A DNA stretch of 64,000 bases, from NCBI GenBank assembly GCA_947044365.1, contig OX345640.1, positions 7,984,410 through 8,048,409 on the forward strand, written 5' to 3'. Each line of letters starts with the position of its first letter. Position 1 is the stretch's first letter. A model generated the notes under the pieces. The model made no database searches. It was not told where the DNA came from and worked only from the letters and a program-made list of their open reading frames with translations. Positions 1-47,560 of the stretch are shown one piece after another. Source of the DNA: Petrosia ficiformis. Taxonomy: Eukaryota > Porifera > Demospongiae > Haplosclerida > Petrosiidae. The position numbers were made by a program, and so were the translations under genes.

Positions 1-3000
1 CCTTCATATCATCTCGTAGGGTTTTCACCAGTATACTCCATGTGGCATTACCAGAGGATATCCAAGATATCAACATTTCCTGTCGACATCGATTGAGATC
101 ACTAGAATGATTCTTCTCAATTGTTTTCAGCACTTTGTAATCCACTTTCAGATATATACCTAGTGTAAACCAGTCTAACACCTGATCAGTAGCTGATATT
201 AGATCCTTTTCTATAAATTGGGTAATAAATATTGTATGAGAGTTATCAATTGTATTATACAGTGCCTGAGATCTATTGGCTAATTAATTCTTCAGTAATG
301 CATGTTTTAAGCTAATTCAATGAATTCAATTTTCAGATGTTAAGCTAGTCTGACACCTCCATTTATAGGTCTTTACATATCTGGAAGGTCTTTACCACAT
401 GCATATGTTTGAATTCCTCAAAGTATTAATTTATAAGTTTCTTTGCTACAATAATTATTATTGGTGTCAAATGAACGTAAACATATGTTAGTATCAAAAG
501 CATTTAGACTACTTGACACTTTTGATATTGCCATGCTTCATAATTAGCATTACAAAAACATTAATATTACAATTGTAGTAGGTATAGCATAGTTGAATTT
601 TTTCCTGAATGAAATGAGCATGACTACTACTGTGAAGTATGAATGGCTGTTGATATGATATTAGGTTTACATTGTTGTTAAGCCCTAGCCAACATAATGT
701 ATATCATGTACTGTATATATATCATGACTATACAAACTGGAATTTTGATAAGATTTGTATATTATCATGTGCCATGCAATTCCCAACAGACATTACATAC
801 CTTCCATTTTTTGCTCTCTCGAAGGAATGAGGGATCCAGACTGTCTTTTTTGACATCTGTACGGTACAATGACTGGAATACTTACTTCTTTTGCTACTCC
901 CAAAAGATGGATACGAAATACACACCTTTCTGGTGGGTCTTCAGATGTCCATTCAATATGAATAGGGATACAAGGAGACAGATTCTCTAAAACCGAGCTT
1001 ATGTACACCTGTTAATAAAAATTAATAATAGCTATTCTCAAGTAATCTGCTTTCCAAATTTACATGTACGTATGCAATTGATTAACCTGTGTTACTGAGC
1101 CTATCACTTCCCAATTTGTCCCAAAAACTTGCCGAGTACCCTTCCATGGTTTTAGTTTTACTTGTTGATGTTCATTGCCATCTTCTTCTGGTAACACTGA
1201 AATAGAAATGGTGTCTATGCCCTCCTTCAGTACAAATGGCTGGAAATCTTCATGGACTGGTTTTTCACTGCTCTCCTGCTCTTGCTTTTGCTTTTGATAC
1301 TATAACCATAGATGAAATCAAATATACATTCTACAACAAGTGTATATAGAGAAAAAAACATCCCTATATTTGCTTTGTGATGACTATGTATTAAGCATTG
1401 CTGATGGCACTAGTGTTTCTACCTTTCTGTGCACTCGAAAGCTGGGGCCTGAAGAAGTAAGTGTAAGCCTGATTGCAGTCTAAATACACACATCTTTGAT
1501 GAACTGACTGAAGTACTCCTTCAAGGTTCTAAATGACGACTTCCTCGTGTCTGATACTCAACAACTTATCATACTTACTTGTTAAAGATTCTTGCATAAT
1601 ATTTATACTGTATATACAACAGTTATTAGCAGTTTTACATCCTTTCTGAAGCTTCCTCACTAATCCTCAGCTGCTCTGTAGCTCAAACGCGCGTTCTTTT
1701 ACGCGCCACGCCCATTAATTGACCGAGCCCCCCGGGAATGACGCAACTTCCTTAACTACGTATACAACGCATAGTCGCGCAAGTGACACAAACATATATA
1801 TATATATATATATATATAAATATATATACATTAAACCCCGTGGAAAGCAATTATAGGGATGGCCCTACGGGCCATAATAAACATTTGTATTAGTTAGTAC
1901 CTCATAATGGGCATTTGTGTACTTAGTGATAAACAGTTTCACATTCCATAACACAGGGCTCTCAATGGGTATCAAGAAGGATAAAACTGCATAAGAACAA
2001 CCAAAGACTAATCTTGATATTGACTGCCTTATCCACTCCAAAGTCTCAAGTATACCAAAAAAAGAAAACTTGGTTTGGTGAATCAGAGCATATCTACCAG
2101 GTAAGAAACTTCCTCCATCAACTGGTCTAAAATGATATGGAGGACCAGTTGAAGTAGTAGCTGAAACAAATGTCAGGTGGGCAGCATCATCATCATTATT
2201 GATTATATAACAATGTTGAAGTGCAAGTGTGGCTGGTTTCTGTAAAATGTGTGAGAGAGAGATAAAATAGAAGGCACTGACTGGAGATGCGTTTTTTGGA
2301 AATTTGAAAGGACCACTATAAATAGCATAGAGATCGAGGGTACCAACTTCTCCCTGAGGAATTGAACCTTGTGGTATATGTAGTCTGCAACCATATTTAT
2401 CCCAGTTAAGAAAATATGGCTCATCACTACTGAATTTAGTGTGATACTCTGCAATGAGCTCCATGTTGTGAAGTGAAACACCTGCGAAATGAAGAGAGAA
2501 TTGTTCAACATAAATGATAAATTGAATGATCGTTTCAATTAGCACAATAGGCATAATGTGCTTCATCATGAAATTTTACTCATCATACTCTAATATGCCA
2601 ACAAATATAACTTCAAAAGCAAGTATACATAGTCAATTTGTATGATTTGTGCAAATCTTTTGTGTTTATGATCTAGAATAAATTCTTGTGTTGTTTCATA
2701 AAAAATAGTTTTGAGGACTTGTAACTATTATGTTTGAGAGTACTGTGAGCTATCAGATTTCACAGTATGACAGTAGATATATTATTGTACCCTCTAATTT
2801 CTGTGTACACACTACCCACTCTTACCTGGATCACCCTTTAGTCGCAAATATTCTGTCGATTGTGTATTTAACGTAATAGCTTGAGCATTTATTGTCATGT
2901 GATTGTTAGCTTCTTTGGTGTGACCACTCTCTACAGATACGACTGCATCTTCTTTCAGTTCATCTGCCTTGGTTAGTTTCTCAAGTTTTTCCTTAATTGA

Positions 3001-14628: not shown

Positions 14629-15081
14629 CAAACTGATGTTGTACATTTAGTCAGTCAAGACTCTTCTCTACATCAAATGAAACTCAGTACAAGATAAAGT
14701 TTATAGTATGCAATTCCATCTGGTTCTGCCTTACATTTATAAAAGACTTCTCATCTTTATTGTTTCAGAGCCTGATTCATTCTAAACAAATTAATTCTTG
14801 TATAATATCATATCTAAATTATGCATGCTGATCAAAACTATTCAACGTCCACATTCGGCAAAGAACTGAGAGGTGTAAAGTGTTTCATTCCAGGACCATT
14901 GACTTTTCAGTCTTAAGAGAAGTACACATACATATCTATGTAATAATTAAATTAGTAAATAAAGTTATTATTCACCTTTGCCTTGTTTAATAATCTCATG
15001 TTAATAGGGGAGAGTTTACCACACCTACTTTTATTGAAAAATAATTAAAGTGATAAGAAGATAAATAAAGATAAATAGCAA

Positions 15082-18000: not shown

Positions 18001-21000
18001 CCATGTAAAATTGGAGGAAGTAGCTCATGGAATTCAGGCTGTCCACCAGTATCCATGAAATATACTGTGGTGGATTCTTCCAAATCCTCCAAATTTTGTA
18101 GACCTGAGCTCTTTAAAACTTCAGACATAAATTCACGAGTCGGGGCAAACTGCTCACTTCCTTCTGATTTATTAGTCGCGATCGCTTCCGAAAGCTTATC
18201 CATTAAATCTCCTGCAGGTCGAACATTATCATCATTCAGAGATGCTCCTGATGTTATGGTTTCACCAGATGATGGAGGAATTGAGTACTTTGCATGTTGT
18301 AATAAATGATGCCCTTGGTCTATAATAGTATCACAATGTACCCACTTTCCTTTGCAGATTTCTGCAGTAGGAAACTTAGTTCGTTCTAAAATACTAATTG
18401 TCACAGGTACTTCGATGCCTGTACTTGGAATATAGTCGGGTGGTTCCTTTCCCTGCAAACGAAACAAAAAGGATGTTTTTCCAACACGAGGAAAACCAGT
18501 CAAAATAGTTTTGACTGGGCGAACTTTGATTTCTCCTCTCCTTCTGCATTCATCTAGAAATAGCTGCATATCTGAAAAGAAATATGGAAAACTGAAAAAC
18601 AACAAACAGCAATGCATTCATATAATAATGATAAGAGTGAAACCTAAGTTTGATTTACATTCTGGATAGTACACAAACAAAATATGCTTCAGTTATTAAT
18701 AGGCTCTTTAGCTAACACAGCTCCAGGATGTATGTCTTCGTCCTTCTTCCAAAATTTCAACATTTTGTTCTTTTAGTTGATCAAACCAAACTCATGCAAA
18801 CCTAAAGACTTTAATGTGGTGGTGATACCACTATTTATATACTCTATAATTTTGAATATGAAATAATTATACAATTAAAACTATAAAAGTTACATGAAGA
18901 AAGAGACCGCTGAGCGAGGTGTTTATTTTTATATCATTAAACTGTAATTTGTACTAGTTGTGCTATGCCAAATTTGAGTTAGGCGTGAGTGATACAGCAA
19001 ATACTTAAGTAATTATAATCACTGATTACAATGTTAACTTAGGTACTGCATGAAGTTTCCTGGTACATACTAGAGGCAATACACAGTATTATCAATACAC
19101 AGTATTATCAATACACAAGTACACAAGTAACAGTTTATATACACAATGTGGTTATGGCTATGTCAGGTATTGTGCATGTGCTATGCATGTGCAAAGTAAT
19201 TACTTTAGTTATATTTCTATATATATAGTAGATCTAGAGTTTATATTAACAACTAAGTTTGAACATATACTCCTTGTACAGTGTACAATTAAATTAATAT
19301 TTAAGACCTTACCATTATCACCACGAACTACATCTTGAATTGGAGGTCGATCTTCAGGTACATCAATGCCTATAAATATTGAGAACACATTGACATTGTA
19401 CTACAAATTAAACATAATATTATTACATTACGTACCTAATTCTCTTAATATAGAATTAGCTATTCCGACAAGATTTGCGTTATCTTGTCTCTTCAATATA
19501 TCACAGAATTTAACGAGTGTTTCTGATTCTTTAAACACTTTGAGAGATTTGAGAACTTCATTCACTAATAAACTGGCTTTATTATAATTAGTATTCGATA
19601 GTTCCAATACTTTATTTCTAACAGGACCAGCTATTAAATCAGCTGCTGAGAGATCATTTGCCAGTTTCTCAGGTTCAGTTATAACATCAAGTAATTGTGT
19701 TAAGTGTGACTTGAGAATATCGTGTGGTGAGACTACATTTGAGATAATAATCACAAGAGTAATATTATGAACCGTATAATAATAATTTATTCATTTATGG
19801 TCATTCCATGTGAAAAGAAAGGTATATATGCTCTTGTGTATATGGTTATAATAATAATGTACCAATTTGTTCACTATTGCTGTAGAAAATGTAGTTGGTT
19901 CTAATATGCTTATTGAGACAGGAGGTTCAATTCCTGTACTTGGACTATATTCGAGTAGCTTTTTCCCAGCAATCGTGACAAAAAATACGTCTTTCCAACA
20001 CAATGCAATCCACTTAAAATACATTTCAGTGGACGAATCTTGATTACACCTTTTTTACATCAGTATTGTATTGGAGTATTCTCTAGCCAATTTTGAAATA
20101 TTTCTTTTAATGAAAAAAAAAAAAAAAAAAAAAAAAAAAGAATAAATATAGCCAACATTTCAACACCTATCCAGCCCTGATGAAGACACCTAGCATTTTT
20201 TTTTTTTCATTAAAAGAAACATTTCAAAATTGGCTAGAGAATACTCCAATACAATACTGATGTCTCTACCTAGCCACAAAGGCCTCTTTAAAATAATACC
20301 TTTTTTACACTCTCCTACAAAAAGCTGTTCATCGGTTTCATATGAATAAAAATAATGTTAACATTAATTAATAATATCTCTCTAAATGCTGTGCTCAATC
20401 TAATTAGTAAGTCACATGTAGGTATTCCTATTAGGATACTGTTATACTGCAAAACTTCAAAGGTGTTTTAATTACTCTTGTGTAAACACAGGTATGTAAT
20501 TGCAGAGCTTCAGTTTATATACACATATGCGGCTGTGCCTATGGCTATTGTACATGTGATGTGAATGTGCAAACTCAGTTGATAATACTTGTACTTCTTA
20601 TATCAATAATGCTTAATTCATCAACATTCTCACCTTCACCTAGACCTTTACTTATCACTGGTTTTACACTCTGTCTTTTCTGAATAGGAGTAGCCTGTGG
20701 TTCTGAGTATTGAAAATGTAAATTAATCTTTGAAATAGTCTTTCAGATCTTTTCACAATTCTACTTGAAATATTTTGCCCTGTCAAATTCAGGTACTAAC
20801 TGTTTAAAATTCAAAGTTGGACCATTTATGTCTACATATAATAACATTATTTACATATGTTTATTATAACTATTATTAACTATTAATATAATTATTAAAG
20901 AAATGTATACTCAGTACTAAATCAATTTTGGAAGCTTTGCAGTGGTCAAACTGAATAATGATTAGAATTCTATTTTTTCCATATTTACCAATATAATGTA

Positions 21001-23643: not shown

Positions 23644-26020
23644 CACTTTTAAATGAATGTTAACCTATAGATATAAAATATATATATATAATATTATACA
23701 AATATTACTAATTATAATCACATAATTATTATATATATACACATAATTATTATGTCAAACCCATGCATAAAGTAATCAAACAATGTCAGGATGGAGTAAC
23801 ACAGAAGGTTAACCGTTAATTATAACGTTACCTTTTAATCTAATTTTTATCTGGATTAGATGGCTGCAATTGTAAGTCTATAAAGCAAATCAAATTAAGT
23901 GAAAGGATATCACTCTTATATATAACAAAGAGAGTCCAGTCAGTCCACCCCTTTTTTTTATATATTCACCTCTTTTACTATATATTCACCCCTTTGTTGA
24001 AATGTGAATATATATGCAAATCTAAGCATACATCTGGTATCGGTTGACACAGTCTAGGAATTATTTATATAATGATCTTGTGTTCCACCCCTTTGTGTGG
24101 TGACTTTATTTCAACTAAGGTCATACTATATGTAATATGAGATTTCATAAACAACACATCAATATTGTTACACTATGTGCAGAACATTATTATAAATACA
24201 GTGATCATGAAATGTGATATCTAATAAACCTTGTGTTACACCTCTCATCTCAACCATTGAGTTATTCGCAAATACACATTATATGCATATGTACATAGAT
24301 AGTAATTGTACCAACGACACTAAATCAACATAATTATTCTAATATTATCTGCAATTATATATAAGTACAATGTACTGTTGAATACTTTCTGTTTTGAGCC
24401 AAGTATCACAAATACATGTAAATTACATGTACATAGGTAGTAATTATATCTTTATCTATATAGTTATTTGTTTTTTTGCAGTGTAGTTGTTCTGTAACAA
24501 TTAAATTAATAGTTATAATTATGATAAGGCATTCGTTGTATAAATACTTTTTATACTCAACTTATGTTCACTTAACATAATTAATTACTAATGGATATTA
24601 AAAATTGGTTATATTAGTTTAGAATATTTCCTAAAACTGAAATTGAATAAAAATTATGTACTTTAAATATGAGAATATATATTACATCCTAACATAACAA
24701 TACATGAATAATGTTGTACTCCATACAACCATTTGTCTAACATGATGAAAACAAATAAAAAATACAAACATCAATTTCTCAAACCATGACTATCAAATAA
24801 TTGTTGAATTGATAATTAGTTTTGTTTTCTTAAAGAGAACTCAGCAAACGCACTCACACAAATTAATAAAAGAGTATTTCTATTTATGTATAATCTGAGA
24901 AGTGTTATGTAATGTAAAATGTATTTTGTAGCTACACTAAACATTATTGACTCAATACTCAATTAATATACTAATGGAATTGTGGGTTGCTTAGTTACAG
25001 GATAGCCTCTTTTCCAGCCTAGAAGATAAAGGTCAGTCATCTATCATAATAAAGAAGTACTGCACCTATAGAGTTGGTCATTCCCAGTATTGAGATAAGT
25101 AATCGCATACAATAATTTATTGACCAATGGGATGGATTAATGATACCCAAACACTATACTCCCCATGTGACATACATTTCTATCCGGTGTTTGTTGATAT
25201 AGTCCATACTACATTTTTTCATTATCGTGTGCTTCACTAAAACATATTAACAACACTAAAGTTTGTGCAACACTCCCATAATCATTAATCAAACCCATAT
25301 GTACATACCTATATATAAATGTGACATATGCATAGTAGTAGTGTTAAAATATATTTGTCCTGCATTTCATTATTGAGTTACAGTATAATCATGTATTACC
25401 CTTACAACATTACACTATACATTATATTAATATAAAGTCATTATATACTAATGAATTATGAGATATTTATTTAAAGTACATGCATGTATAGCCTCTTCTA
25501 AGAAGATACATTTCCCATAAAGAACTATAATGTTGGCCATTCCCAGTATTGAGATAAGTCACCCCATACAATAATTTATTGACCACTGGGATGGATTAAT
25601 GATACCCAAATACTATACTCCCCATGTGTCTATCAGTTGTCTATTGATATAGTCCATAATACATTATAATTATTACCATATCAGGTAATTAAAACTTTAA
25701 AGTCTATGCAACAATAATTGGACATTCTCATAATCAATTACACTATAATGAATGTATATAAGTATACATAAATATAATATTCTGCAGTATTGTTTGTACA
25801 AATATAATTTGAATAACTTACCAAATATTAATTCTTTATAGTGATATTCTAATACAACAAGTGACATGATCAAAATCAATATTATAACTATAGATAAAGT
25901 ATACAAGGAAATTATTAACTGATAAAGGGAATAAATGATATATGTATAGGATATAGCCCTGTTTGGAGGCAGTTATGGGCATATAACAACCGCAAGATAA
26001 TTGGTTGAGGTCGACACTAA

Positions 26021-26332
26021 ACCTCCCTGTCTACAGGCAAGTTATGGCATATATCTCCCCCGCTGTACATCAAAGGTTACCATAGTGATTGCCTACACAC
26101 TATGGTATAAAGACTGATAATGCCTTCACATGTACAATACATATATACATGTACACACTTATAATGTGCATGTATTATATAAATAAGTTGGGTGTTTGTA
26201 TAAGTTAATAAATATTTCATATATCTTACAAATAATAGTTATTTCTCTTCAGGCAATAATATATTAGACTCGTCTTTTTGTGATCTTGTACTATATCTAT
26301 GATATGATACGAGAGGAGAGATATAATACTAA
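26021..26332. mobile_element. 312-bp segment present only in unit 2
   Basis: Unit 1 reads 'gtcgacactaagtacataat' uninterrupted at 12771-12790. Unit 2 has 312 bases between 'cactaa' and 'gtacat', and the insert ends in 'tactaa', giving a possible 5-base 'actaa' duplication. No clear TIRs. The start 'cctccctgtctacaggcaag' resembles neighbouring sequence just upstream. It could be a small transposon or a deletion in unit 1. Confidence 0.6.
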
Positions 26333-27349
26333 GTACATAATTACTTTAGTATGAATTAAACTGTAAATGTCTCTAGTCTATAGTACTAGTGTTTGCTTAA
26401 AATCTTCACATGAATGCACTCCTGACTACTGATAAACTAATAGCACATGATTGTATGTATAATTATGTAGCATGAAGTTCTACTTCTATCTATTACAATC
26501 TTCAATTGCTGTTTTGTTTACACTTGGAGGAGGTATTCTTAATATTACATGTGGAAGACTAAATGCTTGGACAATTCTGCATTCTCATTAATATTGTGGT
26601 TTTACTATAATTATCAAATATGTTCATGATCTCACAGACTGAAATCCTAACATTTAGTTTTAAATATTCATGAAGTTTTACATAATTATGTTATAAATAT
26701 ATATTAATTTTCTTGGCTAATAATAACCACTTAATTAATGAAAGCACAAAAGTGCTGAATCCTCGGTGGTGTTACGTAACTCTGACACAACTTCTCTATC
26801 ATTTTTTCTAATAAACCTTATCTCTGTTTTGTTAGTTAATTTTTGCGGTGAAACAGGCTTACTACATTTTATTGCAAAAGTAGTTATACCCACAACTACA
26901 GGCCCATAATCTAATGTGCAACTTAGTATGACACTGTGGACACTTTTTATATGGAGCCATGATTTAAAAAAGAGGTATATACAACTATTAAAAACTCACT
27001 GTTAATTAAACCGTCAAGACTCCACCTACCAAAGGCAGGAACCTACGCCCACCACATATAATTATTATTGATTATTTTGGCTGACTCTGCAATTTTATAT
27101 GTCCAGAATTCTTGTTATACAGCTCGTGCAAAAGTAGTACACCTACCAGTAACTTTCTGTATGTGTACTCCTGTATAACAACACCTTTTTGAACTGAAAA
27201 AGACCCTCCAGGTTAGCCTAAGTATAAATAACGCCATATCTTTTGAATCAAGAATTTTCATAAAATTTCACACATCAGTTAGAAAGAGTGTGAAATTTAC
27301 GTCATGTTGATACTCTAATTTCGATCTCTAGACGAACGACTTTGCTTAT

Positions 27350-27942
27350 TAGTCTGGCGTAGCTAGCCCCACCGCTGAAGGGAGGGGGGTCTGGTGAAAC
27401 GCGTATACTAAAGTTGTTCTAGTGGAATGCAATTAAGCTGCAGCAATTACGTAATCTCAGTAGGTGTTGTATAAATATATACACTGCAGATGAAATAATT
27501 TCTGATCTATCATGATAGCTGTCAGTGAACTTACAACAATTACTATTGATGGCTTTTCAATGGGTAGAGATTATCAAACACCCAAGGAAGGCAAGCATAG
27601 CAAAGACTCTTTCCATACTCTGTTGGAAGCACACCAAATACATCTTCTCCTTTCACAACGCTGATTATCACATCCATCTGCTTATCCTTTAATGAATCAT
27701 ACCCTAATCTCTTTGCAGCAGTCGTTGAAGCCATTACTACATCTCATTCTGTTACTGCAGATCTCTTCTAATTTTCGCAGGTGATAATAATATTCATAAC
27801 AGTGATAATCATATTCATAAACAAATAATAATATTCATTGTGACCACAATCGCTGCACTGTAGGCTGCAGTAGAACAACTTTGGTATACGCGTTTCACCA
27901 GACCCCCCTCCCTTCAGCGGTGGGTCTAGCTACGCCAGACTA
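27350..27942 (-). mobile_element. 593-bp TIR element with RecQ-like helicase fragment (unit 2)
   Basis: Same element as 13798-14390, with the identical 9-base duplication 'tttgcttat' at 27341-27349 and 27943-27951, so it predates the 10-kb duplication. Here the helicase fragment is open from 27734 to 27543 (63 codons), with P-loop-like 'PTEYGKSLCYACLP'. The usual Gly is replaced by Glu, and helicase motifs II-VI are absent, so it cannot be an active helicase. Confidence 0.88.
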
Positions 27943-28637
27943 TTTGCTTATTTTGTAGTAACAGACAGACAGACGGACAGACACAACTAACTACCGTAAT
28001 CCTTCGCTGCGCATGCGCACCGAGGATTAACTACTGACTATACTATGATGCTTCCACCATGTAAACAGTCATCTTGTATGTTAGTATAAATAGTGCATGG
28101 ATTGCACTATTTATAGTAGTGAAATATACATGGAGAAAATGCCATAGCGCAAACTGATTAGTCAGACGTGGCCACGCCTGACTATAAACTGATGTTGTAC
28201 ATTTAGTCAGTCAAGACTCTTCTCTACATCAAATGAAACTCAGTACAAGATAAAGTTTATAGTATGCAATTCCATCTGGTTCTGCCTTACATTTATAAAA
28301 GACTTCTCATCTTTATTGTTTCAGAGCCTGATTCATTCTAAACAAATTAATTCTTGTATAATATCATATCTAAATTATGCATGCTGATCAAAACTATTCA
28401 ACGTCCACATTCGGCAAAGAACTGAGAGGTGTAAAGTGTTTCATTCCAGGACCATTGACTTTTCAGTCTTAAGAGAAGTACACATACATATCTATGTAAT
28501 AATTAAATTAGTAAATAAAGTTATTATTCACCTTTGCCTTGTTTAATAATCTCATGTTAATAGGGGAGAGTTTACCACACCTACTTTTATTGAAAAATAA
28601 TTTAAGTGATAAGAAGATAAATAAAGATAAATAGCAA

Positions 28638-31600
28638 TTATTTAGTAAAAGGAATAAAATCCTCTTTTTTAATATATTTATTGTAGACTTCTGGTTTCTC
28701 TAAGAATTCTTGAACTTCTTTAGCAATGTCACGTTTTCCACATTCAACTAGTACTTTTAGAATTGTCTCCCATGTTACCTCTGGTATCTGTTTACCAATC
28801 CATTTTTGAAGTACTGTTTCCAGCTTCCAATCATTATCCAGGTTGGAAGTTTGTAAACCTTCACGGACATTAAACGAAACATCTAAAGCAATACCAAGCT
28901 CATTCCATGATGCTGATATACATTTTGTCAAACGAAGAACATCTTTCATCTCTGGTGATTTCTTTAGTAAATTACGATAATTTCTAATTCCAGAACCTAT
29001 ACAAATATATGTAATTATTGATCATGATTATAAGTTCATTACTATAATTACATAGTTTACTCTCTTCAACATTTACAAATACTCAATTTAGTCTCATCAA
29101 TTGTGCTACTGATATCAAATGTAGTTATACAACTAACTACGGGTGTAATAATAAATCTTTTGATATTTATGGTTAACAATTATAAATTTTTAAACAAGAA
29201 AAGTTTAAAAATGCATTTTAGGTATGGAAAAAAATTGCGTCATATACATGAACAATAAACTCACTATCTGGTTCTTCATTCCCACCAGTATGAGACGTGG
29301 ACTGCTGTACAGATATATCTATGATTATAAAAAATATAAATGTATAATTCAACTATATGAAGAAGATTATAATAATGAATTGTACCTGGTTGCTGTGCAG
29401 TATTCTCTTGTCTTCTTTCTGTCTTTACAATGCCACTTTCGCTTGGTGATCTGGATTTATCATCTATTGAGAAATACATAAGTGAGTTAAGAACAAGAAC
29501 AATGATATTATTATCACTACAAATGTACAAGTACAATAAATGAACTAGTCATCACATCACATACATACATGTACAAAAACGTGTACTTCAGAAAAGAGTT
29601 ACACATGCTACAAGAGTTCTTTTTGATAATTATAATAGTAATTTTAAAATGCATGAAACTACACATAAATGTATCCGATGTACATAATTTTGGTAGGTAG
29701 GTGCATGCAATATTCAATTCATGTTTATATGTCCATGTGGTACGCAACAAACTTTGATAAAAATAGATACTGTCGCTTTCACATATTTGCTGACTCTAGG
29801 CAATCTCTGGTGGATATACACATACTTTTGCTGTGTAAAGCGTTTTATACAAATCAAGTCATGACTATGATTCTTTCAATAGTCCTAATACAAACTGTGT
29901 TGAGTATTTGCTTGAAACGTATATTAATTTAGCTGATACAGTATCTGCCAAGTCAAGAACAAACAACAAAATACTACATACACAAAAAGACATTGATTTA
30001 TACAAATCATGAAATAATCGTACATGCATGATTAAATTTAAATTCAAATATATTCATTGTACCTGGTTCTACTTTGCTCTGAATCTTTCTGATGGATTTT
30101 TCTTTTCGCTATTAAAATGGATTTCTCATTATTAAATCAGTACACAAATACATGTAGACAAATATAATTACCTCAAACCATGATGCATGATCTGGAAAGA
30201 GTTTTTTGAAGGAGATGGGATTTTTATATTGTGGACATTTGTTTTTTGCACTGCACGAAAGAAATCCATCATTATATATCAAGTTGTGAACGGGTGAACA
30301 GCTAAAGCTTCCTGGACAATAGAAACCTTCCATAACTGTATGAGCTGTACGCTGATGAGCTTCTAGCACTTTAGTTAGACATTTGTTTATAAAAGTGCGA
30401 GTTTCGAAGCAGTAGGATGATGCTTCTTCATCTGCAGTGATACGAATTTCCAAATAAGTTAAACACGAGCGTAACTCAACTCTATGTGATGTTACAACAA
30501 AGTCAACATGATTACAGTACAGAGTATCACAATCAAATTCCCATTTTGGCGCAGATGATAGTTCAATTACGAGAGCTGCGAAAATACCTACTGGAACAAA
30601 TCCGCTCTCAAATGTTATCAAGAGTGGAGGAGGATCAAGCTTTAAAATTTCGTCAGTAGATATCGAGGACATCAGATTTTCATCAGACTGTAGAAGGCAG
30701 GGCATGAAGTAATCTGGTTCAATCTTTTTCATCAACTTATAATGTGTGAGGAGGTTTATTAGGTGACTGACTCGAAATGGACTATTAGGATCATCTCTGA
30801 GTGAATGTTGTGGTATCTTCCCTGTTTTTCTGATTGTGTTTGCTTCGGTATGAAGGAAGCCAGAGCCGAATGAGGCTGCCACAAGGTGAGATATTCCACG
30901 AAATAACACGTTAGGATCACATATAACATATTCCCGAAGGCTGTCAACGTTTTCATAATATAGGACAGTTCCAAGATTATTATGTAGGTGTCGTAGAACT
31001 GAAAGCACATTTTCCTCTTCAATGCCACATTCCATAGCAAGATCGGTACATTCCTTGATGGTACACACACCTGCCTCCCTATACTTGTAACGTAAAATTA
31101 GGTGAAAGGCTGCCCAAGTCAGTGGAAGACGAATTTGCTCAAATGTTTGAAAAACTATTTCCAGACATTTCTCAATGCGTTCTATATCCTCCTTAGATTG
31201 ATTTGTATTGTCGACTGGTAGAAAAATGAGATTATCATTGTTCTCATTAGGATAAGTTAAAAATCCCTTTTCACACAAGGGTGAGGCCTCCACCTTTTCT
31301 TTGATCTGTTTGTTGATCTTCTTCAAATGCTCTAATTTACATAAATCAATATGAGAACCCAAAAGGAATGATTTTGCTCGCATTGGTTGCTCCTCTGAAT
31401 GAAGAGAATAGATAGTGGAGAGAAGTTGATGAAGAATTTGAATCGAGGAATGGTTAGTGGTATAAGTAACTGACTCTTTCTCTGTCTTGTGACTATACCG
31501 TACCTCAACTGGCTTTGTAAGATCAAGATAGGCATTGAAGATTATAAGGTGAAGTGCAGGGCCATGTAAAATTGGAGGAAGTAGCTCATGGAATTCAGGC

Positions 31601-32960
31601 TGTCCACCAGTATCCATGAAATATACTGTGGTGGATTCTTCCAAATCCTCCAAATTTTGTAGACCTGAGCTCTTTAAAACTTCAGACATAAATTCACGAG
31701 TCGGGGCAAACTGCTCACTTCCTTCTGATTTATTAGTCGCGATCGCTTCCGAAAGCTTATCCATTAAATCTCCTGCAGGTCGAACATTATCATCATTCAG
31801 AGATGCTCCTGATGTTATGGTTTCACCAGATGATGGAGGAATTGAGTACTTTGCATGTTGTAATAAATGATGCCCTTGGTCTATAATAGTATCACAATGT
31901 ACCCACTTTCCTTTGCAGATTTCTGCAGTAGGAAACTTAGTTCGTTCTAAAATACTAATTGTCACAGGTACTTCGATGCCTGTACTTGGAATATAATTGG
32001 GTGGTTTCTTTCCCTGCAAACGAAACAAAAAGGATGTTTTTCCAACACGAGGAAAACCAGTCAAAATAGTTTTGACTGGGCGAACTTTGATTTCTCCTCT
32101 CCTTCTGCATTCATCTAGAAATAGCTGCATATCTGAAAAGAAATATGGAAAACTGAAAAACAACAAACAGCAATGCATTCATATAATAATGATAAGAGTG
32201 AAACCTAAGTTTGATTTACATTCTGGATAGTACACAAACAAAATATGCTTCAGTTATTAATAGGCTCTTTAGCTAACACAGCTCCAGGATGTATGTCTTC
32301 ATCCTTCTTCCAAAATTTCGACATTTTGTTCTTTTATAGTTGATCAAACCAAACTCATGCAAACATAAAAACTTTAATGTGGTGGTAATACCACTATTTA
32401 TAATTATACTCTATAATTTTGAATATGTAATAATTATACAATTAAAACTATAAAAGTTACATGAAGAAAGAGACCACTGAGCGAGGTGTTTATTTTTATA
32501 TCATTAAACTGTAATTTGTACTAGTTGTGCTATTCCAAATTTGAGTTAGGAGTGAGTGGTACTGCAAATACTTAAGTAATTATAATCACTGATTACAATG
32601 TCTTAGTATTAACTTAGGTACTGCATGAAGTTTCCTGGTACATACTAGAGACAATACACAGTATTATCAATACACAAGTACACAAGTAACTGCAGAAATG
32701 TTTATATACACAATGTGGTTATGGCTATGTCAGCTATTGTGCATGTGCTATGCATGTGCAAAGTAATTACAATTGATCTTTAGTTATAACAAATACTGTA
32801 TTTATATTCTAGCAGATCTAGAGTTTATATTAACAACTACGTTTGAACATATACTCCTTGTACAGTGTATATAAAACAATTAAATTAATATTTAAGACCT
32901 TACCACTATTACTAGGAACTACATCTTGAATTGGAGGTCGATCTTCTGGTACATCAATGC
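28638..32960 (-). CDS. Gene C: Roc-COR GTPase / DEATH, near copy of gene B
   Basis: Exons: 32904-32960 (linker), 30172-32132 (Roc-COR, 653 codons), 30063-30108, 29386-29463, 29265-29318, 28638-28996 (DEATH and stop). They sum to one frame of 850 residues plus stop. P-loop, 'DTGGQPEF', 'GSHID' and COR regions match gene B; about nine residues differ over the first 595 of the exon. A cluster of about ten changes plus a one-codon insertion lies in the last 55. The fourth exon is nine bases longer and reads 'RKEKSIRKIQSKVEP'. No CARD-like or DEATH exon is found upstream: the duplicate breaks at 33006, so the 5' end is unknown and may be truncated. Confidence 0.68.
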
Positions 32961-35231: not shown

Positions 35232-37056
35232 TTACAATAACAATGATGACCTGACAATAATAACTAATGCAGCTCTTCCTGAGAATAGCACATAGACTTC
35301 TTGAGGTACTGATAGTTTTTCAGATAGTCGACTAAGTACTGGATCATCCTGAGTATTTAACACATGACAAAATGAAGTGAGTATTTGATGATCATTGAAT
35401 ATACTAAGATAACGAAGAAATTCTTCTAATAATATACTGGATTTTTCATATGGGCTGAGACCGGATGTACATAATAGTCTACTTCTAACAGAATCAGATA
35501 TCAGATTAGCAAGAAACACATCGTTTGCTAATCTGTCTGTGTCAGTAATAGCACGAACAAGTGTGTGTAAGTGTGACTTGACAATATCATGCGGTGATGA
35601 AATGGAAGGTCTAGTTCCTCCTGAGAAATGCATATAAATAAAGAGTATAACACTACTATACTAACTAAATTCTAATTAGTATTCATCACACATATATAAC
35701 CAAATCAGAAAACATTGCAATGTTATACCTGGAGATACTCTTTGTGGCAACATTACTCGGAAGAAGTTATTTGGCCCATTAACGCCTTCTAAAAGAAATT
35801 TCATATTTAGTTTCTTCACAGGTAAGTCAGATTGCCAATAGAAATTAAAGTGACAGTGAGGAACAACCAGAGTTTGTTCAGGAGTAAAATAATCAATATC
35901 TTCTCTATCAATCTACAAGATATAGAAACATATAAATGAAAGCACATTCATTATGATTATATTTACACCTGGGAAGAAGTAATTTCAGACATTTCCCACT
36001 GATCTAAACAATGACTGTCTGGCTGCAATCTGATATAACTTGCATCTTCTTGTAGTGTTATTATTTGATGAGCACCATATAAGCAATCAGAATACTCTTC
36101 CTTAATGAACTGCATAAAACAAGTAATATATTAAGATGTATAAATATAGCTAAGTAATTTTACACTCGCTAGATATAACCTTCATAAATGCAGGATCGTT
36201 CTTCGTTACTAGGTATATAACATCCCATTCATGAGGTTGCATTAACTTGTAGAGAACTTGAGAGTAATATCGCTGTCTTGTCAGTCTACTTGGAAGTTCA
36301 CTTGTTCCTACAGCAATGTCTACATAATTTTGCAATTGTAACGGTTAATTCCTTTTTTTAAATATGAGTAATTATAAATTTTAATACAAACTGTACTACA
36401 TACAATTAGACTGCTAAAAGAAATATTATTACAGCAACCCTCCGCTCCACCTACGCGGGTGAGGGTTGAAATGATATGTTCAGTCCCCTAGAATGATGCT
36501 ACTAATTAACGTAACTATGCATACAATGCATATGTGACACAAACATTATAAATATATAATATTATATATAGATTCAACCCTATGGAAAGCAATCATAGAG
36601 ATGGCCCTTTAAACACTAGGAGTGACTGTGAGAAAAGCGCACTGTGAAATTCCAGCAAATTAATCATTAATGAGGGGCATGGTCAATCATTTTGCCTATT
36701 TCCATAAATGGAAAATTATTATGTACAATTTGCAATCTTTTTCATACACAAACAGACAGACAGACAGACAGACAGAACACTAGATTACAGTAACCCACTG
36801 CTCCATCTATGTAGGTGAGAGTTAATTAGAGACTTGGAAGTTGTGAAAACACTTGAAAATGAAAGACAACTGTTTATTAAAACACTTACTCAGTCAATTG
36901 ACCTTTGCAATTAACTAAATTAATAATAAACCACAAATATGCAAGCATGTGTAAAAGGAAGCTTACAAGCGACTTCATAATGAAAACGCTAAAGATATCA
37001 AATAAATGATGATCCAATTTTATTTTAATATAATAGTCATTATACTTACGTGACAT
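35232..37056 (-). CDS. Gene D: compact UPA-like plus CARD-like protein (286 residues)
   Basis: Exons: 37050-37056 (seven bases, ATG TCA C), 36180-36319, 35969-36109, 35729-35912, 35232-35620 with stop; total 861 bases, frame closed. Residues about 30-150 ('EWDVIYLVTKNDPAFMKFI', 'YIRLQPDSHCLDQWEMSEIT', 'PHCHFNFYW') resemble the UPA half of the FIIND/ZU5-UPA fold by pattern. Residues about 165-270 are CARD-like ('HDIVKSHLHTLVRAITDTDR', 'SILLEEFLRYLSIFNDHQIL'), related to the CARD-like exons of genes A and B. The tail after the CARD is hydrophobic ('AALVIIVRSSLLL'). UPA-CARD is the layout of the C-terminal fragment of NLRP1/CARD8. No ZU5, NACHT or LRR is present. The tiny first exon is chosen because its donor and phase fit exactly. 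Confidence 0.62.
36430..36830. repeat. Upstream-of-exon dispersed repeats (two GC-rich tails, GACA tract)
   Basis: 36435-36470 has 'ccgctccacctacgcgggtg'; 36755-36830 has a GACA tract then 'cagtaacccactgctccatc'. These are two copies of the family also seen at 6300 and 53130. 36480-36610 matches the TA-rich segment at 1735-1865. The block lies in the first intron of gene D. Confidence 0.5.
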
Positions 37057-40012: not shown

Positions 40013-40331
40013 TTCTATGTACAATGCATGTATGTTACACTTATGAGCATTCAGACCAATAAGTTAATATATATTATAAAGTTCATAAATTAAATATTAT
40101 TCTCCACTAGAAGATATATAGTTCAAGAGAATTCAATATAACTAAATAGTTGATGGAAATTTTCTAACAACAAAAGATTGTGTATGTTGACTATGATGTT
40201 CTTTACATTTTTTGAATTTAATGTGTGTACTTATATATGTATATATGTATGTGCAATATATGTATGTACAATGTATGTATGTATTATACAGTGCCTGAGA
40301 TCTATTGGCTAATTAATTCTTCAGTATATAC

Positions 40332-40611
40332 TAGGGCTGGGAATCGGCTGAGATTCTGAAATCGATTATCACTAACTCCAAGTCAATTGATAATCGATTA
40401 AAATCAGCGGAAGTAATTAGGCCAATTAAGTCAATTAATACAGGAAACTCCTCCCATTTGATGATCAAAAAGGACTTCAATATTGTACATTATTTGCTGT
40501 CACATGCGGAAAAGTATGTTGTTTGGAATAATTAGCATAATTGATATCACAGACTTATAATCGATAATCAGAAGAATTTTCAATATCGATTGATTAATCG
40601 TCCCAGCCCTA
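40332..40611. mobile_element. 280-bp hAT-type MITE, absent from paralogous site in gene A
   Basis: Ends 'tagggctggga' / 'tcccagcccta' with perfect 8-base duplication 'gtatatac' (40324-40331, 40612-40619). The flanks 40285-40323 and 40620-40700 align with 251-298 and 299-400 next to the gene A terminal DEATH exon, where the sequence is uninterrupted. Internal 'aatcgattatc' motifs. Non-coding. Confidence 0.92.
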
Positions 40612-40869
40612 GTATATACTAATGCATGGTTTACTCAATCTTCAGACCAGTCTGACACTTCTCTTTATATATCTGGAAGGTTTTTATCTTTTTAAACATA
40701 AAATAATTATGTTATTACTATAAATGTTTTATTATCAGTGAAAGTAGCATTAACAACAGTTTCTTTTGTCAGCAAAAAAATATTCAATTAATTTAATTAC
40801 CACAAAGTTGGTACTACATAGGACTCATAAGATTATTATAAAGTTGATTACAGAAATGGTTTTATATAA

Positions 40870-43800
40870 TTATTGACTAATGATAGCAGTAATTTGATTC
40901 ACACATATTCGTGCTTCTGTATTCTCATTTATTGCTTCAGGATCATATCTGTGTCGAAGCATGCCTTTCAGCGGATTCTCATCATTATCAAACTCAGGAG
41001 GAAGACAAAACCTGCCGACCCATTCAATAGGGAAAAACTTTTTCTCACGTTCTAAAGCATGTCGTAGCTCCAGTAAGCATTTATCAGACTGGAAGTAGTC
41101 AGTAGACAAAACACACACAAACAAATCACTGCTCTCAATGCCACTCTTCATTTTTGTAGTTAAATTTGCACCAGGATTTATGCCACCTTCATCATCTTTC
41201 CACACTTCAACATGTGGAATTCTATTAAGATCATTAAACAGATTATCAGCAAACTTCTTCTGTTCATCCTTCCACCTATAACTGATGAAAATGTTGAAAT
41301 CTCCATCTAAATTAATGAAAATATTTCATATTGTCACTAATGTAAGATAAATCATACCACTTAGGCTACATTGAGCTAAGGCAGGAGTAGGACTTTGTTC
41401 TGTGAAAAGAGGAGAATGTCACATGAAGTTATATCAGTTTGCTAATTCATACAAACCTTCTTTCATTTCATCAACTATGTCTGATAAGTGATTTACCTCC
41501 TTTAGTACTTGGAAAACTGCTTTCAGACAACCAGAACCTTGATTCTTAATTTTGTCACACACAAGATTTAGAAGGAAAATAGCTCCATCAATCCCTTTAT
41601 TACGTTGCACATTGGCCAAATCTGCTGGTCCAATTATCTGCTTGGCTTCAAAACCAACAGCAAGTGCAGAAAGTGCACCATCATTAATTTCTAACTTCTC
41701 ACAAATACGACCTTTAAATTTTCTCACAACATCAGCCATCTTGACAGGGAGAATAGACGAATCTAATTAGTAAACAGGTGTGATGTATGGAGAGGATATG
41801 TAAACTTGATAACCACACTATCTTTCAATCATGATAAGGAATTTATAGAAGATTGAACTAATTAATAAGCACAACTACTTTGCTGTGCATCCTATAAACC
41901 TGCAAAGTAGTTATACAGCTAACTACTGTGAAGTGCAAGTGGTTGTTGATATGATATATGATATCAGATTACATTATTGATAAGGGCTATATAGCGAAAA
42001 CAATGTTATTAATGTATAGGATTTGACAAAACCAAACATGTGGTGAAACTATTATTAGGAATGTATATAAAAAAATATATGATAATGTGATATTAATAAT
42101 GCCATGCAATGTATCAAAATGAAAGCTTGAAATATGTAGATTATTATGTAATAATCGTTTTTTGTTATAATTATTATCACATTATCATGTAATTTTGTGT
42201 GTGCATTCCTAATAATAATAACTTCACTACATGTTTGGTTTTGTCAAATCCAGTCACATATATATCATGTATATACACACTCAAATAGAGGAATTTCAAT
42301 CAGTTATAGGTGTGATACTTAAAATTTGTACCAGTACAATATCACACACAATGTAATTTGAGTTTGTACATTACTATGTGCCCAATACAAATGTATGTCA
42401 TCAGGCATTACATACCTGCCATTTGCTTTTTCGAAGGACTTTTTTGATATTTGTACGGTACAATGACTGGAATACTTAATTCTTTTGCTACTCCCAGGAA
42501 ATGAATACGAAATACACACCTTTCTGGTGGATCTTCAGATGTCCATTCAATACGAATAGGGATACAAGTAGACAGAGTTTCTAAAACCGAGGTTATGCAC
42601 ACCTATTAATAAAAATTAATAATAGCTATTCTCAAGTAATTGGCTTTTGCAATTTAAGTTTAACCTGTGTTACTGAACCTATCACTTCCCAATTTGTCCC
42701 AAAAACTTGCCGAGTACCCTTCCATCGTTTTAGTTCTACTTGCTGATGTTCATTGCCATCTTCTTCTGGTAACACTGCAATAGAAATAGTGTCTACACCC
42801 TCTTTCAGTACAAATGGCTGGAAATCTTCATAGACTGGTTTTTCACTGCTCTCCTGCTCTTGCTTTTGCTTTAGATACTATAACCATATTGAAATTAAAT
42901 TGTATATTATACAATAAACATTTGTATTAGTTAGTACCTCATAATGAGCATTTGTGTACTTAGTGATAAACAGTTTCACATTCCATAACACAGGGCTCTC
43001 AACTGGTATCAAGAAGAATAAAACTGCATAAGAACCACCAAAGAATAATCTTGATATTGACTGCTTTATCCACTCCAAAGCCTCGAATATACCCAAAAAA
43101 CAAAACTTGGCTTGGTGAATAAGAGCATATCTACCTGGTAAGAAACTTCCTCCATCCACTAGTCTAAAATGATATGGAGGACCAGTTGAAGTAGTTGCTG
43201 AAGCAAATGTCAGTTGACGAGCATCATCATCATTATTGATTATATAACAATGTTGAAGTTCGAGTGCGGCTGGTTTCTGTAAAATGTGTGAGAGAGAGAT
43301 AAAATAGTAGGCACTGACTGGAGATGTGTTTTTTGGAAATTTGAAAGGACCACTATAAATAGCATAGAGATCGAGGGTACCAATCTCTCCCTGAGGAATA
43401 GAACCTTCTGGTATATGTAGTCTGCAACCATATTTACTCCAGTCAACAGATAATGACTTATCACTACTAAATTCAGTGTGATGCTCTGCAATGAGCTCCA
43501 TGTTGTGAAGTAAAACATCTGAAAAATAAGGATGAGAATTATTCAACAGAAAATTGTTAATTTAATTACAATTACATTATTTGCCACCTATTATGCATCA
43601 TAAAGTATATACATCAAAATTTACTCGTTAATCTACAAAAAAATATAACTTTGAAAAAAAGTAAACATAGTTAATTTATATGATTTGGGCAAATAATTTG
43701 TGTTTATAATCTTATACCACTGGAATAATTTCTTCCATAATGCTAGTCCCCAAATGATAAAATGTAATTGTAGAACTAACCACAAGTTTAACAGTAAACC

Positions 43801-44577
43801 AATTTATATTTATGGTAAGCAATTATACTCATTGTTTCGCACATTTCCACTTTCAAAACAAGAATAATAGTGGATTCATATAATTATGTATATAGTATGA
43901 TGGTGACATCATCCCTTTGATGTGGTGAGTTCTATATATTGTATATAGATCTTCCATGTGCACAATATGCAGGAGATGTCAACATCATACAATATATTGT
44001 ATATAGTATGCTAACAGGTCCTATATACAGGACCCTTGTGTTGTGTCCTCAGATGTGATATAGCCCTCGCAGGCTCAGGCTATATCACATCCTTGGACAC
44101 AAAACTCAGCTCCTATGTTTTGTATATAGAACATGTTGGCATACTATATAATGCTATATAATTATATATATATATAATATATATATGCAATATATATAAC
44201 ATTGCTTCGAGGTGTGTATCAGACTATCAGCAATATCAGACCTGGACCCCGAGATAGCAGCCAGAGGCGGCTGCTATCGAGGGGTGAAGGGCTGTTATTG
44301 CTGATACACACTGAGAAGCCATGCTACATATAATATATTTTATACCTAACATGTACATCAGACATCTACTACTTTTTCCATTTGTAAACAACTCGTCTCC
44401 AACTCTTTTCAATCTACAACTTGACTGCGCAAGCTCAGACTGATGCAATCTATTATGAATATCATTATAGGTCTTATATCAGCCGTGTGGTTTCATATCC
44501 ACCTGTGGTTGAGTTTATATTGCGTATATTACGTATATAACACCTGTCGGTAACTTTGATGTGGCTGTTAGCTATGG

Positions 44578-44610
<33 letters not shown>

Positions 44611-47560
44611 TTATATGTAGTATATATACCATGGCTTCGAGGGATATATGTTGAATATAAGATCCGAGCATCAAGATATTGAGGTGCGAGGGTCTTATAT
44701 TCACCATATATACCGAGAAGCCATGGTACATATAATATATTCTATAGCTAACAGAAACATCAAAGAACAGGACAATGGACACGAGTAACAGGCTAACACA
44801 CCTTACACTTTCGGCGACATGGGGTAATCAAACGAATAGCTCCTCGGAAAAACGCCCATCTATTGGTTCTTTTTTTCTTTTTTTAAGAGACAAAGAGAGC
44901 TTCTTTTCTGTGTTTACTTGTCGAACACGCTTCATAGCCTTCATTCTCTGTAGACTTTCGGTGACTGCGCATGTGCAAAACCATGACGTCATACTAGGGA
45001 TGATATATGGCATATATCCCTGCTGTACTCGTGAATGAACTTTGATGTGGTTGTATGACTTCCCTGCGGTTGTATAACTGCCCTGTGGTCGGGGATATAT
45101 GCCATATATACGCCCTGTTGGCTATTTGATTTTTCTGTTAACTATGGTATATATCTATATATATATATATATTTTTTTTTATTTTTTTTTTATGTATATG
45201 TAATAGCCATATATAGGTGGTATGATTTTGCCATTTTCCATAGTTAATCCAAGTCATTCCAAGTCATTAATTTCAATTTAAATAAGCCCATATCCAATGA
45301 ATACAATTTTTATGACTCACTTAGTTGCTCTGATTTTGAAGGAATCAAATCAGTTGATGAGTCACTTGATGGTTTATATAATTGATCCTGCTGTTCTGTT
45401 GTAAGTGGATTGGAATAAGAAAGAGCAGTTTCTTGTGGTGACAATGGTTGTTGCGGTGATGACAATAATGAGATAGAGGTATCATTTTCTCTTGAGTGAC
45501 TAGGTCTCAAGCACTTTTCAGTAATATCTGTGACTTGATTTTGATTTTTCCTCTGGCAAGATGGACTACTTCTACTAATAACACTCAGTCTATTCGGTAT
45601 ATTTAGTGTCTCCATTGAATCCTTAATGCTAGTTATAATAGTTTTAAGTTCTTTTATGACATCTGTAATCTTCATCTCAGTGGATTCGGCTTGAGATGCA
45701 AACTTGTTTATTTCCTCAAGTAGTTTATTCCACTGCTCCTCACCACGTATTATTGTTTCATCTCTTTCCTTGATAAGCTTATCAATGTTATGTTTGAAGT
45801 GACCAAATCCTGATATGAACATCGAAAACTATTCATGAGCAAAAAAATTTGGTGTAAAATACATAATCAAGCATAACAATTTATGTTGAGCAAATATAGA
45901 ATTCTTAATCATAGTCAATACTGAAAATATATAAAGTAGGAATTCCTCATAGAAGACTTCAGAAGCCCGCATTGTTATACATAAGAAATTCATATAAAAC
46001 AAGTTGGGAATTGCTTAAATACAAAGCTTGTAATAAAGTACACATATATAGCAGATTTGTACACAAATGAATCACATTGTATTTACAATAATGAACTAGT
46101 GGTGCAGAACACCCTCATCCTAAAACCCTACAGTTCGATGATCATGTGACATTTGCCACATTTCCAAGACCTAAAACTCAAGTTTTCTGTAGCCTGTTTA
46201 GTAAGCACAGAGCAATTTTTATCAACCTGTAAAACCCAAAAAGTTTATGAACAAGGTTTGGAGGTTAACGTAGAACCAAAGATTAAGTACTTGCACAACT
46301 ATAAAGCAAAATATGAATTAAAGAGCTGTACTTATGCAGAGTTATATGGAATTTTGTTCACATACTTTCTGTGTTTTAATGTCCTTACATCTTCTTTCAT
46401 TTTTACTCTAAATGTTTTCTATTATTATTATTTTGTTTGTTTTTTTTCCTGAATGGTGAATAATTTGTAAATATTTTTTGGTAACTTGCAGATCACTTGC
46501 AATTGAAAAGTATGGACAGCCATTTTTTCCATGCCATCTCTACCTAGAGACTAGAGTACTATTATACTTTATGATATGTCTGGCTACGTGAGACTAAACT
46601 GCAGTTTGCATTCAAGTAAAATCTTTATAACACCTGGATACACTACAAAACACGATTTTAAACTGTAGACTTGTAGCTAGCTAGCTAGCTGGTAATCTAT
46701 AGTCTGGCGTGGCCACACCCTTCGCTTGGAGGAGGAAGGGTCTGGTAACAGCAGCACGAATGAGTTGTGGAAATGGAATTTAATTACTGTGAAGCTGGAA
46801 TCTTAATTACCAGAAAAAGGTCTGGCTTGCTAATAAGCATGGGCTGAATTTGTATTGCTTGTGGACAGGATTGCTTTACCACACTCTCCATAATAGCAAC
46901 GAGATCGAGAGGCGTCACAATACTGCCAGTAGTGTCTCTTAATTAATTTGTCATAGGCTTTTGGCAGGCAGCCTGTAAAACCATGCCGGCTTTTGACATA
47001 CCTGGTTGGTAACACAGCAAAAACATCTCTGTCACTCATGAACTCTAATAACACTAACCTTTTCTCCTCTTTCAGCGCTGTGTAAACAATAATCCTTGTG
47101 TGCACACTCAATCTCACACTTCTTTTCAGCCATATTTTCAAGGTGATTATTACGTTTGCATTTTTGCGGTTAATTATTCGCGTAGAACAATGTAGCAGGA
47201 ACTCTTGCTACACTCCACAACTCCTTCGTGCTATTGTTACCAGACCCTTCCTCCTCCAAGCGAAGGGTGTGGCCACGCCAGACTAGCTAATCTATGAAAA
47301 CATGCATACTTAAATCCCCAAAAAAGGGTGATAATATTTCAATAGCCTGCAATATATCACATTATTATCAATGGCTGATTTATTGCCAATCTAACTACGG
47401 ATACCATTATGTGTAACTAATGTTTAAATTACACAGTTAACTACACATACACCACATGAACATATTCAACACCCACTTGCACAAGATGTAACATATACAG
47501 TACCTTTTCGTTAGATATGACCTGAGTAGGCTCCTGATATCGATAATTGCTTTCAGGCAT
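40870..47560 (-). CDS. Gene E: coiled-coil / ZU5 / UPA / CARD-like / TIR protein (776 residues)
   Basis: Exons: 47504-47560 (ATG), 45321-45828, 42938-43518, 42665-42877, 42416-42602, 41457-41762, 41358-41399, 40870-41306 (stop). They total 2331 bases, a closed frame of 776 residues. Residues 20-188 start with a coiled coil and continue into a Ser/Gln-rich linker. ZU5 is 189-382 ('GCRLHIPEGSIPQGEIGTLD'), UPA-like 383-515, CARD-like about 516-617 ('EINDGALSALAVGFEAKQI'), TIR 632-776 ('DFNIFISYRWKDEQKKFADN', 'VWKDDEGGINPG', 'SSDLFVCVLSTDYFQSDKC'). ZU5 and first UPA exon lengths (581, 213) equal those of gene A. TIR domains act as signalling adaptors or NAD-cleaving enzymes; which applies here cannot be said. 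Alternative: the CARD-TIR part could be a separate 253-residue gene starting at the ATG at 41739. The in-frame acceptor at 41762 favours fusion. Confidence 0.62.
42019..42251. mobile_element. 233-bp MITE-like element with about 46-bp TIRs
   Basis: Left arm begins 'ggatttgacaaaaccaaac' and the right arm ends 'gtttggttttgtcaaatcc'; pairing continues about 46 bases. The paralogous stretch next to gene A (about 690-705) lacks it. The TSD is not clear (perhaps TA). It lies in the intron between the UPA and CARD-like exons of gene E. Confidence 0.8.
43900..45180. repeat. Cluster of palindromic hairpin modules in a gene E intron
   Basis: Three strong hairpins: 44042-44065 with 44078-44101; 44203-44325 with centre 'gatagcagccagaggcggct'; and 44628-44665 with 44691-44727. 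The last two share tips 'atggcttcgag...gagaagccat' followed by a 'taatatatt' stretch. TA tracts and T tracts separate the modules. A minus-strand ORF, 45013-44828, with Lys/Arg-rich sequence is unexplained. Origin unknown; probably a composite, palindrome-rich transposon family. Confidence 0.55.
45840..46690. other. Intronic spacer with one dispersed repeat
   Basis: Lies between exon 1 and exon 2 of gene E. 46170-46360 resembles 4950-5150 (the family of the hairpin at 5051). Otherwise AT-rich; the plus-strand ORF 46153-46452 has no recognisable protein. Confidence 0.5.
46700..47285 (-). mobile_element. 586-bp TIR element with a second RecQ-like helicase fragment
   Basis: Ends 'tagtctggcgtggccacac' and 'gtgtggccacgccagacta'. 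TIRs extend about 50 bases through a 'cttcgcttggaggaggaagg' segment. Flanking 9-mers 'ggtaatcta' and 'gctaatcta' differ at one position. The interior (minus, about 47080-46900) reads 'KEEKRLVLLEFMSDRDVFAV' then 'LPTRYVKS', a decayed RecQ Q-motif/P-loop region. Same tip as the 13.8-kb element but a different internal sequence, so a sister subfamily. Confidence 0.8.

Follow-up and report, generated by a model that had tools for sequence, protein, structure and literature searches.

The stretch of DNA analyzed here (hereafter the window) covers 64,000 nucleotides of the sponge Petrosia ficiformis, namely C5:7984410-8048409 of a 191.2-Mb assembly in 29 contigs, and carries on its minus strand two related genes, A and E. 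In the model of gene E, a ZU5-like exon (42938..43518, 581 bases, ending in phase 0) has AG/GT borders and aligns with positions 1876-2674 of gene A at 87% DNA identity. It is followed by a second exon of 213 bases (42665..42877), which is the first part of a presumed UPA region and bears the UPA label by position, and by a third exon of 187 bases (42416..42602), which ends in phase 1 at an intact GTATGT donor. Beyond an intron (41763..42415) lie a CARD-like exon of 306 bases (41457..41762, phase 1 to phase 1), with an ATG inside it at 41739, a linker exon (41358..41399, phase 1 to phase 1) of 42 bases, or of 39 if an alternative donor is used, and a TIR exon with the stop codon (40870..41306). 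Gene A, for its part, has its ZU5-like exon at 1901..2481 (581 bases), its second exon at 1087..1299 (213 bases) and its third at 801..1008 (208 bases, with a phase-1 donor), and continues with a DEATH exon (1..210), whose acceptor at 210 is in phase 1 and whose frame runs on past the edge of the window. The DNA identity between the two genes is 87% over 807 alignment columns and 84% over 593.

The first-pass annotation of this DNA had described ZU5 and UPA exons of 581 and 213 bases as shared between A and E, which their lengths and AG/GT borders bear out, and to these we can add the third shared exon (208 bases in A, 187 in E). It had also stated that the two genes align in flanking non-coding sequence, and A-like pieces are indeed found in the intron of E down to approximately 41922. 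Its description of the next exon as DEATH in A, and as CARD-like and then TIR in E, holds as well, with the addition of the 42-base linker exon between the latter two, and its claim that both replacements enter in phase 1 agrees with the acceptor of A and with all the junctions in E (third exon to CARD, CARD to linker and linker to TIR). All six exons of E are open with AG/GT borders, and the joined frame, which begins with the ZU5 exon and closes at the stop codon of the TIR exon, comprises 587 residues. Since the CARD-like and linker exons are symmetric phase-1 exons, splicing the third exon to the CARD-like, the linker or the TIR exon would in each case keep the frame. What is more, the CARD-like and TIR exons also lie in one open frame of 253 residues that begins at the ATG at 41739. 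Apart from the A-like pieces, the intron before the CARD-like exon holds an inverted-repeat, MITE-like element at 42019-42251. Other elements of this kind are seen at 44000-44150, 44615-44740 and 40332-40611, the ends of the last having been judged by eye and a copy of it lying below gene A.

The CARD-TIR unit and the rearrangement between A and E

The best genomic match to the CARD-like and TIR exons of E is at C5:7937232-7938088, 88 kb away, with protein identities of 60% and 64%, respectively. This copy has the same CARD-linker-TIR structure with GT/AG introns, including the GTATGA donor of the 42-base linker exon, and is open from the same ATG as a single frame of 277 residues. At the DNA level it is 80% identical to E over 976 columns, both introns included, and the sequence common to the two amounts to approximately 1.05 kb (41926-40874 in E). 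The similarity also covers a leader (41740..41926): it is strong from 102 bases before the ATG (41841), with 96% identity at 41841-41763 (72/75 aligned), and weaker from approximately 41926, about 187 bases before the ATG. The 102-base piece of this leader occurs at two places in the genome, namely E and the copy. The same order recurs in a third CARD-TIR pair, at C5:8412811-8413771, where an ATG at the CARD again encodes MA.

Neither phmmer nor profile search recognized a ZU5 or UPA exon in the 10 kb that precede the copy. What is found upstream is a ROC-COR frame and a DEATH exon ending in a stop codon, followed by 2.7 kb with five AATAAA/ATTAAA motifs, and the nearest listed ZU5 place on the same strand lies approximately 15 kb upstream, beyond the ROC-COR frame, in a stretch that was read in part. 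A single UPA-like match of 11 residues (E=0.0019) before the copy could be a relic of UPA exons, and we judged it to be due to chance, as the rest of E's intron is unaligned there. A frame closely similar to the ROC-COR frame upstream of the copy is also seen in the window, where two near-identical tandem blocks (approximately 9700-18700 and 23300-32200) carry ROC-COR and DEATH frames. Because the 10 kb upstream of the copy hold no recognized ZU5 or UPA exon, the CARD-TIR unit appears to be a gene on its own at that locus. In E, poly(A) signals follow the TIR exon, including an AATAAA at 40728..40733, and the ATG at 41739 stands in the favorable context AAGATGG. Given that a copy with the same structure, the same ATG and a similar leader stands elsewhere with no ZU5-UPA recognized in the 10 kb before it, the unit in E most likely arrived as a whole gene.

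The site of this putative arrival can be delimited on both sides. On the upstream side, the similarity between the introns of A and E stops at 41922, and that between E and the copy begins at approximately 41926. On the downstream side, the first-pass annotation had claimed that the sequence next to the DEATH exon of A persists beside E, with the CARD-TIR exons sitting between it and the UPA exons, and this is what we find. Namely, what precedes the DEATH exon of A has a homologous flank beside E at 40280..40690, where E 40326-40280 matches A 297-251 at 100% and E 40686-40662 matches A 394-370 at 92%, and the CARD-TIR exons are located between the third shared exon and this flank. Between the two matches stands a 280-base repeat (40611-40332) that is also present below A. 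With up to 3 mismatches allowed, a 34-base piece of the flank was located twice in the 191-Mb genome, once beside A and once beside E, as against 0 times for its reversed control, and for this reason we regard the rearrangement as real. The candidate explanation that the flank is itself a repeat was ruled out, as it occurs at two places in the genome. Around gene E, no DEATH was found by phmmer at E<=1, and a 15-residue match to the DEATH profile at 36086-35988 (E=0.48) was not counted. As to the direction of the change, a further relative (L035, at C5:7694313) has ZU5, both UPA-region exons and a DEATH exon with 81% DNA identity to that of A. Because it is also of the ZU5-UPA-DEATH kind, UPA-DEATH is the older state and E the derived one.

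Domain assignments and their counterparts elsewhere

The profile searches upheld the TIR label that the first pass had given, and the assignment of the last exon of E as a TIR domain is firm (PF13676, TIR_2, 68.8 bits against a cut-off of 28, E=7.8e-19); the residues labeled CARD had no Pfam match. The DEATH exon of A reaches 21.9 bits with Pfam Death (E=1.9e-4), slightly below the cut-off of 22.6. The ZU5 of E itself scores 15.0 bits with PF00791 against a cut-off of 21 (E=0.03), and its label comes from its relatives rather than from E itself, 14 of the 16 aligned members matching this family at E<=1 and the best of them at 1.5e-4. For the CARD-like exon, 0 Pfam families were matched, PF00619 included, and it is absent from the genome's 29 PF00619 places; among 17 aligned members of this E-type CARD, one matches PF00619 (E=0.028). 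That said, a single-sequence AlphaFold model of the exon at 41457..41762 (pLDDT 77) has a CARD-like fold with CARDs as its closest solved structures, and it is on this model that the label CARD-like is based. The UPA family PF17217 had 0 matches in the genome, but the controls of that search were likewise without a match. Searches of the PDB with profiles from the CARD and ZU5 alignments gave no or irrelevant matches, and the AlphaFold model of the ZU5 exon was unusable (mean pLDDT 36).

The ZU5-like family is very large in this genome, with at least 152 matches (150 scored of 372 candidates), and is largely missed by the Pfam ZU5 model (2 matches of 35 candidates). How often its members stand next to the other domains was counted with 150 listed of the 152 ZU5 matches, all 101 E-type CARD places, all 29 Pfam CARD places and 24 TIR places, the latter being 18 plus 6 of the 27 rows of a second listing, with C15:4177323, C7:231735 and C9:6685264 left out. 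At 12 of the 101 E-type CARD places (E included, and two ZU5 places counting twice), a ZU5 precedes the CARD by no more than 6 kb on the same strand, as compared with 4 of 101 for the reversed order, and a Pfam CARD has such a ZU5 before it at 4 of 29 places, as compared with 1 of 29. Five places on C3 share a similar ZU5-CARD spacing of 1.35-1.41 kb. ZU5-CARD neighbors are recurrent in the genome, where the figures are distances between exons and the genes are putative. ZU5 followed by TIR within 6 kb occurs at 1 of 24 places, which is E, and since the reversed control is equal (1 of 24), this count alone gives E no special status.

Two stretches close to the genes studied here also deserve mention. 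At 35232-36344 on the minus strand, a UPA-like stretch of three exons is followed by another CARD-type exon, with phase-1 borders as judged by eye and with no ZU5 exon recognized. The counterpart of this stretch below gene A, outside the window (L066/L082), leads past some poly(A)-like signals to a TIR exon rather than to a CARD-type one. Taken together, the two are a possible second case of output-domain change.

When the joined E protein was compared with 5.8 billion proteins, 0 of the 7994 scored candidates matched at E<=0.001, while a search with the CARD-TIR protein matched 1 of 178 candidates. The latter, P0001, is a TIR piece of 173 amino acids, with 68% identity to E over 113 columns and 64% identity to the copy; it is encoded on a 427-kb ENA contig, perhaps from a related animal in a metagenome. 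The query proteins carried the 39-base linker and are two residues off the final model (SD in place of N).

UNC5, ankyrin and PIDD1 are proteins of the ZU5-UPA-DEATH type, and the same order is seen in gene A and in L035, while E is without DEATH. In NLRP1 and CARD8, ZU5-UPA (FIIND) is followed by CARD, cleavage takes place between ZU5 and UPA, and the UPA-CARD fragment of NLRP1 forms an inflammasome (PMC9700037, PMC11202080). The order ZU5, UPA, CARD in E is the same as in this FIIND-CARD tail, and the difference is the TIR after the CARD. At the end of ZU5 as aligned by sequence, the FIIND self-cleavage site has Ser after Phe, whereas E has Phe-Cys, Ser being present in 10 of the 16 members (A included) and Cys in 6 of the 16. 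The NLRP1 triad is H1186, E1195 and S1213 (PMC9700037). No conserved His at NLRP1's 27-residue spacing was found in the aligned members, and the invariant His, residue 89 of E, lies 50 residues before the Cys. These residues neither support nor exclude a FIIND-type self-cleavage of E.

As to TIR partners, placozoans have MyD88-like proteins with TIR and CARD in one protein, a combination also predicted for E, and ZU5-UPA is not mentioned there in the available part of the source (PMC6321704). Among the best PDB sequence matches of E's TIR are the plant and bacterial TIR domains L6, RUN1 and AbTIR, over approximately 90 residues, and its C-x-x-E-L segment aligns with that of the plant protein L6. 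The glutamate of this segment is presumably the catalytic residue of NADase TIRs, and its conservation suggests that the TIR of E may consume NAD. Other combinations are described in three further sources. A sponge survey reports 14 genes, of which 6 combine TIR with immunoglobulin and one combines it with DEATH (PMC12909245), TRADD-N proteins are reported to be fused to a UPA-ZU5 module (PMC8195603), and for amphioxus 28 TIR domain combinations are reported, of which 20 are amphioxus-specific (PMC2575513). A ZU5-UPA-CARD-TIR protein is not named in the literature searched, to the extent that its text was available, where the amphioxus partner list (PMC2575513) could hold a ZU5 or CARD partner. 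The first-pass claim of an arrangement new to animals is to be narrowed in this light. Namely, ZU5-CARD recurs in this genome and corresponds to the FIIND-CARD order of NLRP1 and CARD8, and only the added TIR, i.e. the four-domain order, would be new.

One fused protein or two genes

The reading we prefer, and to which we would give an even chance, is that an A-like ZU5-UPA-DEATH gene received a whole CARD-TIR gene in the intron between UPA and DEATH, that the DEATH exon of the E copy was lost, and that the ZU5-UPA transcript now reads into the insert and is spliced to its phase-1 acceptors, probably giving a ZU5-UPA-CARD-TIR or ZU5-UPA-TIR protein. A CARD-TIR protein started at 41739 may be made besides or instead of the fused form. 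In the fused form, the ZU5-UPA part would hold and regulate, the CARD would assemble filaments and in this way cluster the TIR, and the TIR would act as an effector or adaptor, the net effect being that a DEATH-adaptor output is swapped for a CARD-assembled TIR output. More specifically, and with a likelihood that we would put a little below even, the locus would make a ZU5-UPA-CARD-TIR protein in which an NLRP1/CARD8-like regulatory module is wired directly to a TIR enzyme nucleated by the CARD, an intron having captured the entire CARD-TIR gene. With the same slight reserve, this fused state would be bracketed by the DEATH-bearing sister A on one side and by a non-fused copy of the captured gene on the other.

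A fused product is plausible since the ZU5-UPA transcript would reach the insert with no canonical poly(A) signal on the way and since the acceptors downstream are all in phase 1, and the intact donor at 42416 and a ZU5-UPA part that is not decaying favor it further. The first of these is a weak indication: the 653 bases of the intron at 41763..42415 contain 0 AATAAA/ATTAAA motifs where 2.3 are expected, and 8.8% of 2000 shuffles contain none. There is also an acceptor-like TAG at 41763, of the AT-rich kind and like E's other acceptors, which is no evidence for the junction because the copy without ZU5-UPA keeps it too. As for the ZU5-UPA part, there are no stops in its 326 codons. With L035 as the outgroup, the E lineage has 9 synonymous and 17 nonsynonymous changes and the A lineage 8 and 22, with 13 ambiguous, and with L036 as the outgroup the figures are 11 and 24 for E and 5 and 21 for A, with 11 ambiguous. 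In other words, the constraint on ZU5-UPA appears to be no weaker in E than in A, although the numbers are small.

Between the CARD-TIR unit of E and the copy (L004/L064), coding identity is 78.7% in CARD and 80.8% in TIR, as compared with 94.3% in intron 1, 87.0% in intron 2 and 96.0% of aligned bases in the 79 bases before the CARD exon, and dN/dS is 1.11 for CARD and 0.66 for TIR. With a dN/dS of 1.1 and coding sequence less alike than the introns, there is no support for constraint on the CARD. This pattern suggests that the protein changes rapidly, as is seen in genes of host-pathogen interaction or self-recognition, or that gene conversion has acted. We rejected the conservation of the leader as a proof of a promoter, as the unit's introns are similarly conserved (94% and 87%).

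What disfavors fusion is the ATG at 41739, the shared leader and the presence of the unit elsewhere. The strongest rival reading is built on these, and we consider it a serious candidate, if somewhat less probable than the preferred one. It holds that there are two genes and no fusion, namely a ZU5-UPA gene shortened to the third exon, where reading through the donor at 42416 adds two codons and a stop, and nested beside it a CARD-TIR gene with its own promoter and its start at 41739. In its favor are the copy with the same leader and ATG, the poly(A) signal 3' of the TIR, and the MA... starts that 12 of 27 CARD rows, among them E and the copy, have at the CARD or shortly ahead of it (there being no such start in the remaining 15), so that the ATG at 41739 seems to be placed where a class of this genome's CARD genes starts. 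Against it stand the lack of AATAAA/ATTAAA between the two parts, at its modest weight, the intact donor with downstream acceptors in phase, and the apparent constraint on ZU5-UPA. The fused ZU5-UPA-CARD-TIR protein of the first-pass annotation is accordingly to be kept as far as the open frame and the fitting phases go, and is called into question by the position of this ATG. From sequence features of this kind, fused and separate products are about equally likely, with fusion slightly ahead, and both may hold together.

The first-pass annotation had furthermore interpreted the locus as a captured exon replacement, i.e. as CARD and TIR having been taken up as internal exons, never a gene, and replacing DEATH in one step. 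The location of CARD-TIR, with the third shared exon on one side of it and the DEATH-side flank on the other, the older age of UPA-DEATH, the phase 1 throughout and the neighboring stretches F and G, where a CARD-like or TIR exon follows UPA-like exons with phase-1 borders by eye, are all compatible with this. However, the insert looks like a complete small gene and not like bare exons, since the unit occurs elsewhere with a leader and an ATG and with no ZU5-UPA recognized in the 10 kb upstream, and a swap at the level of exons is improbable for this reason. Least probable is that the E copy is decaying or its junction an assembly error, with nothing functional being made, which would fit the rapid protein change and the repeats and long TA run at 39.9 kb, but which sits poorly with six open exons with AG/GT borders and with sequences on each side of the insert that are found at only two places each.

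Under our preferred reading, in which a whole CARD-TIR gene was captured, the locus would be a well-bracketed case of animal death-fold immune genes gaining a new output domain. Each step of such a change is testable, because one genome contains the sister gene A, the changed gene E and, in the copy 88 kb from it, a donor-type gene. If the fusion is expressed, a FIIND-type control module would here be joined to a TIR effector.
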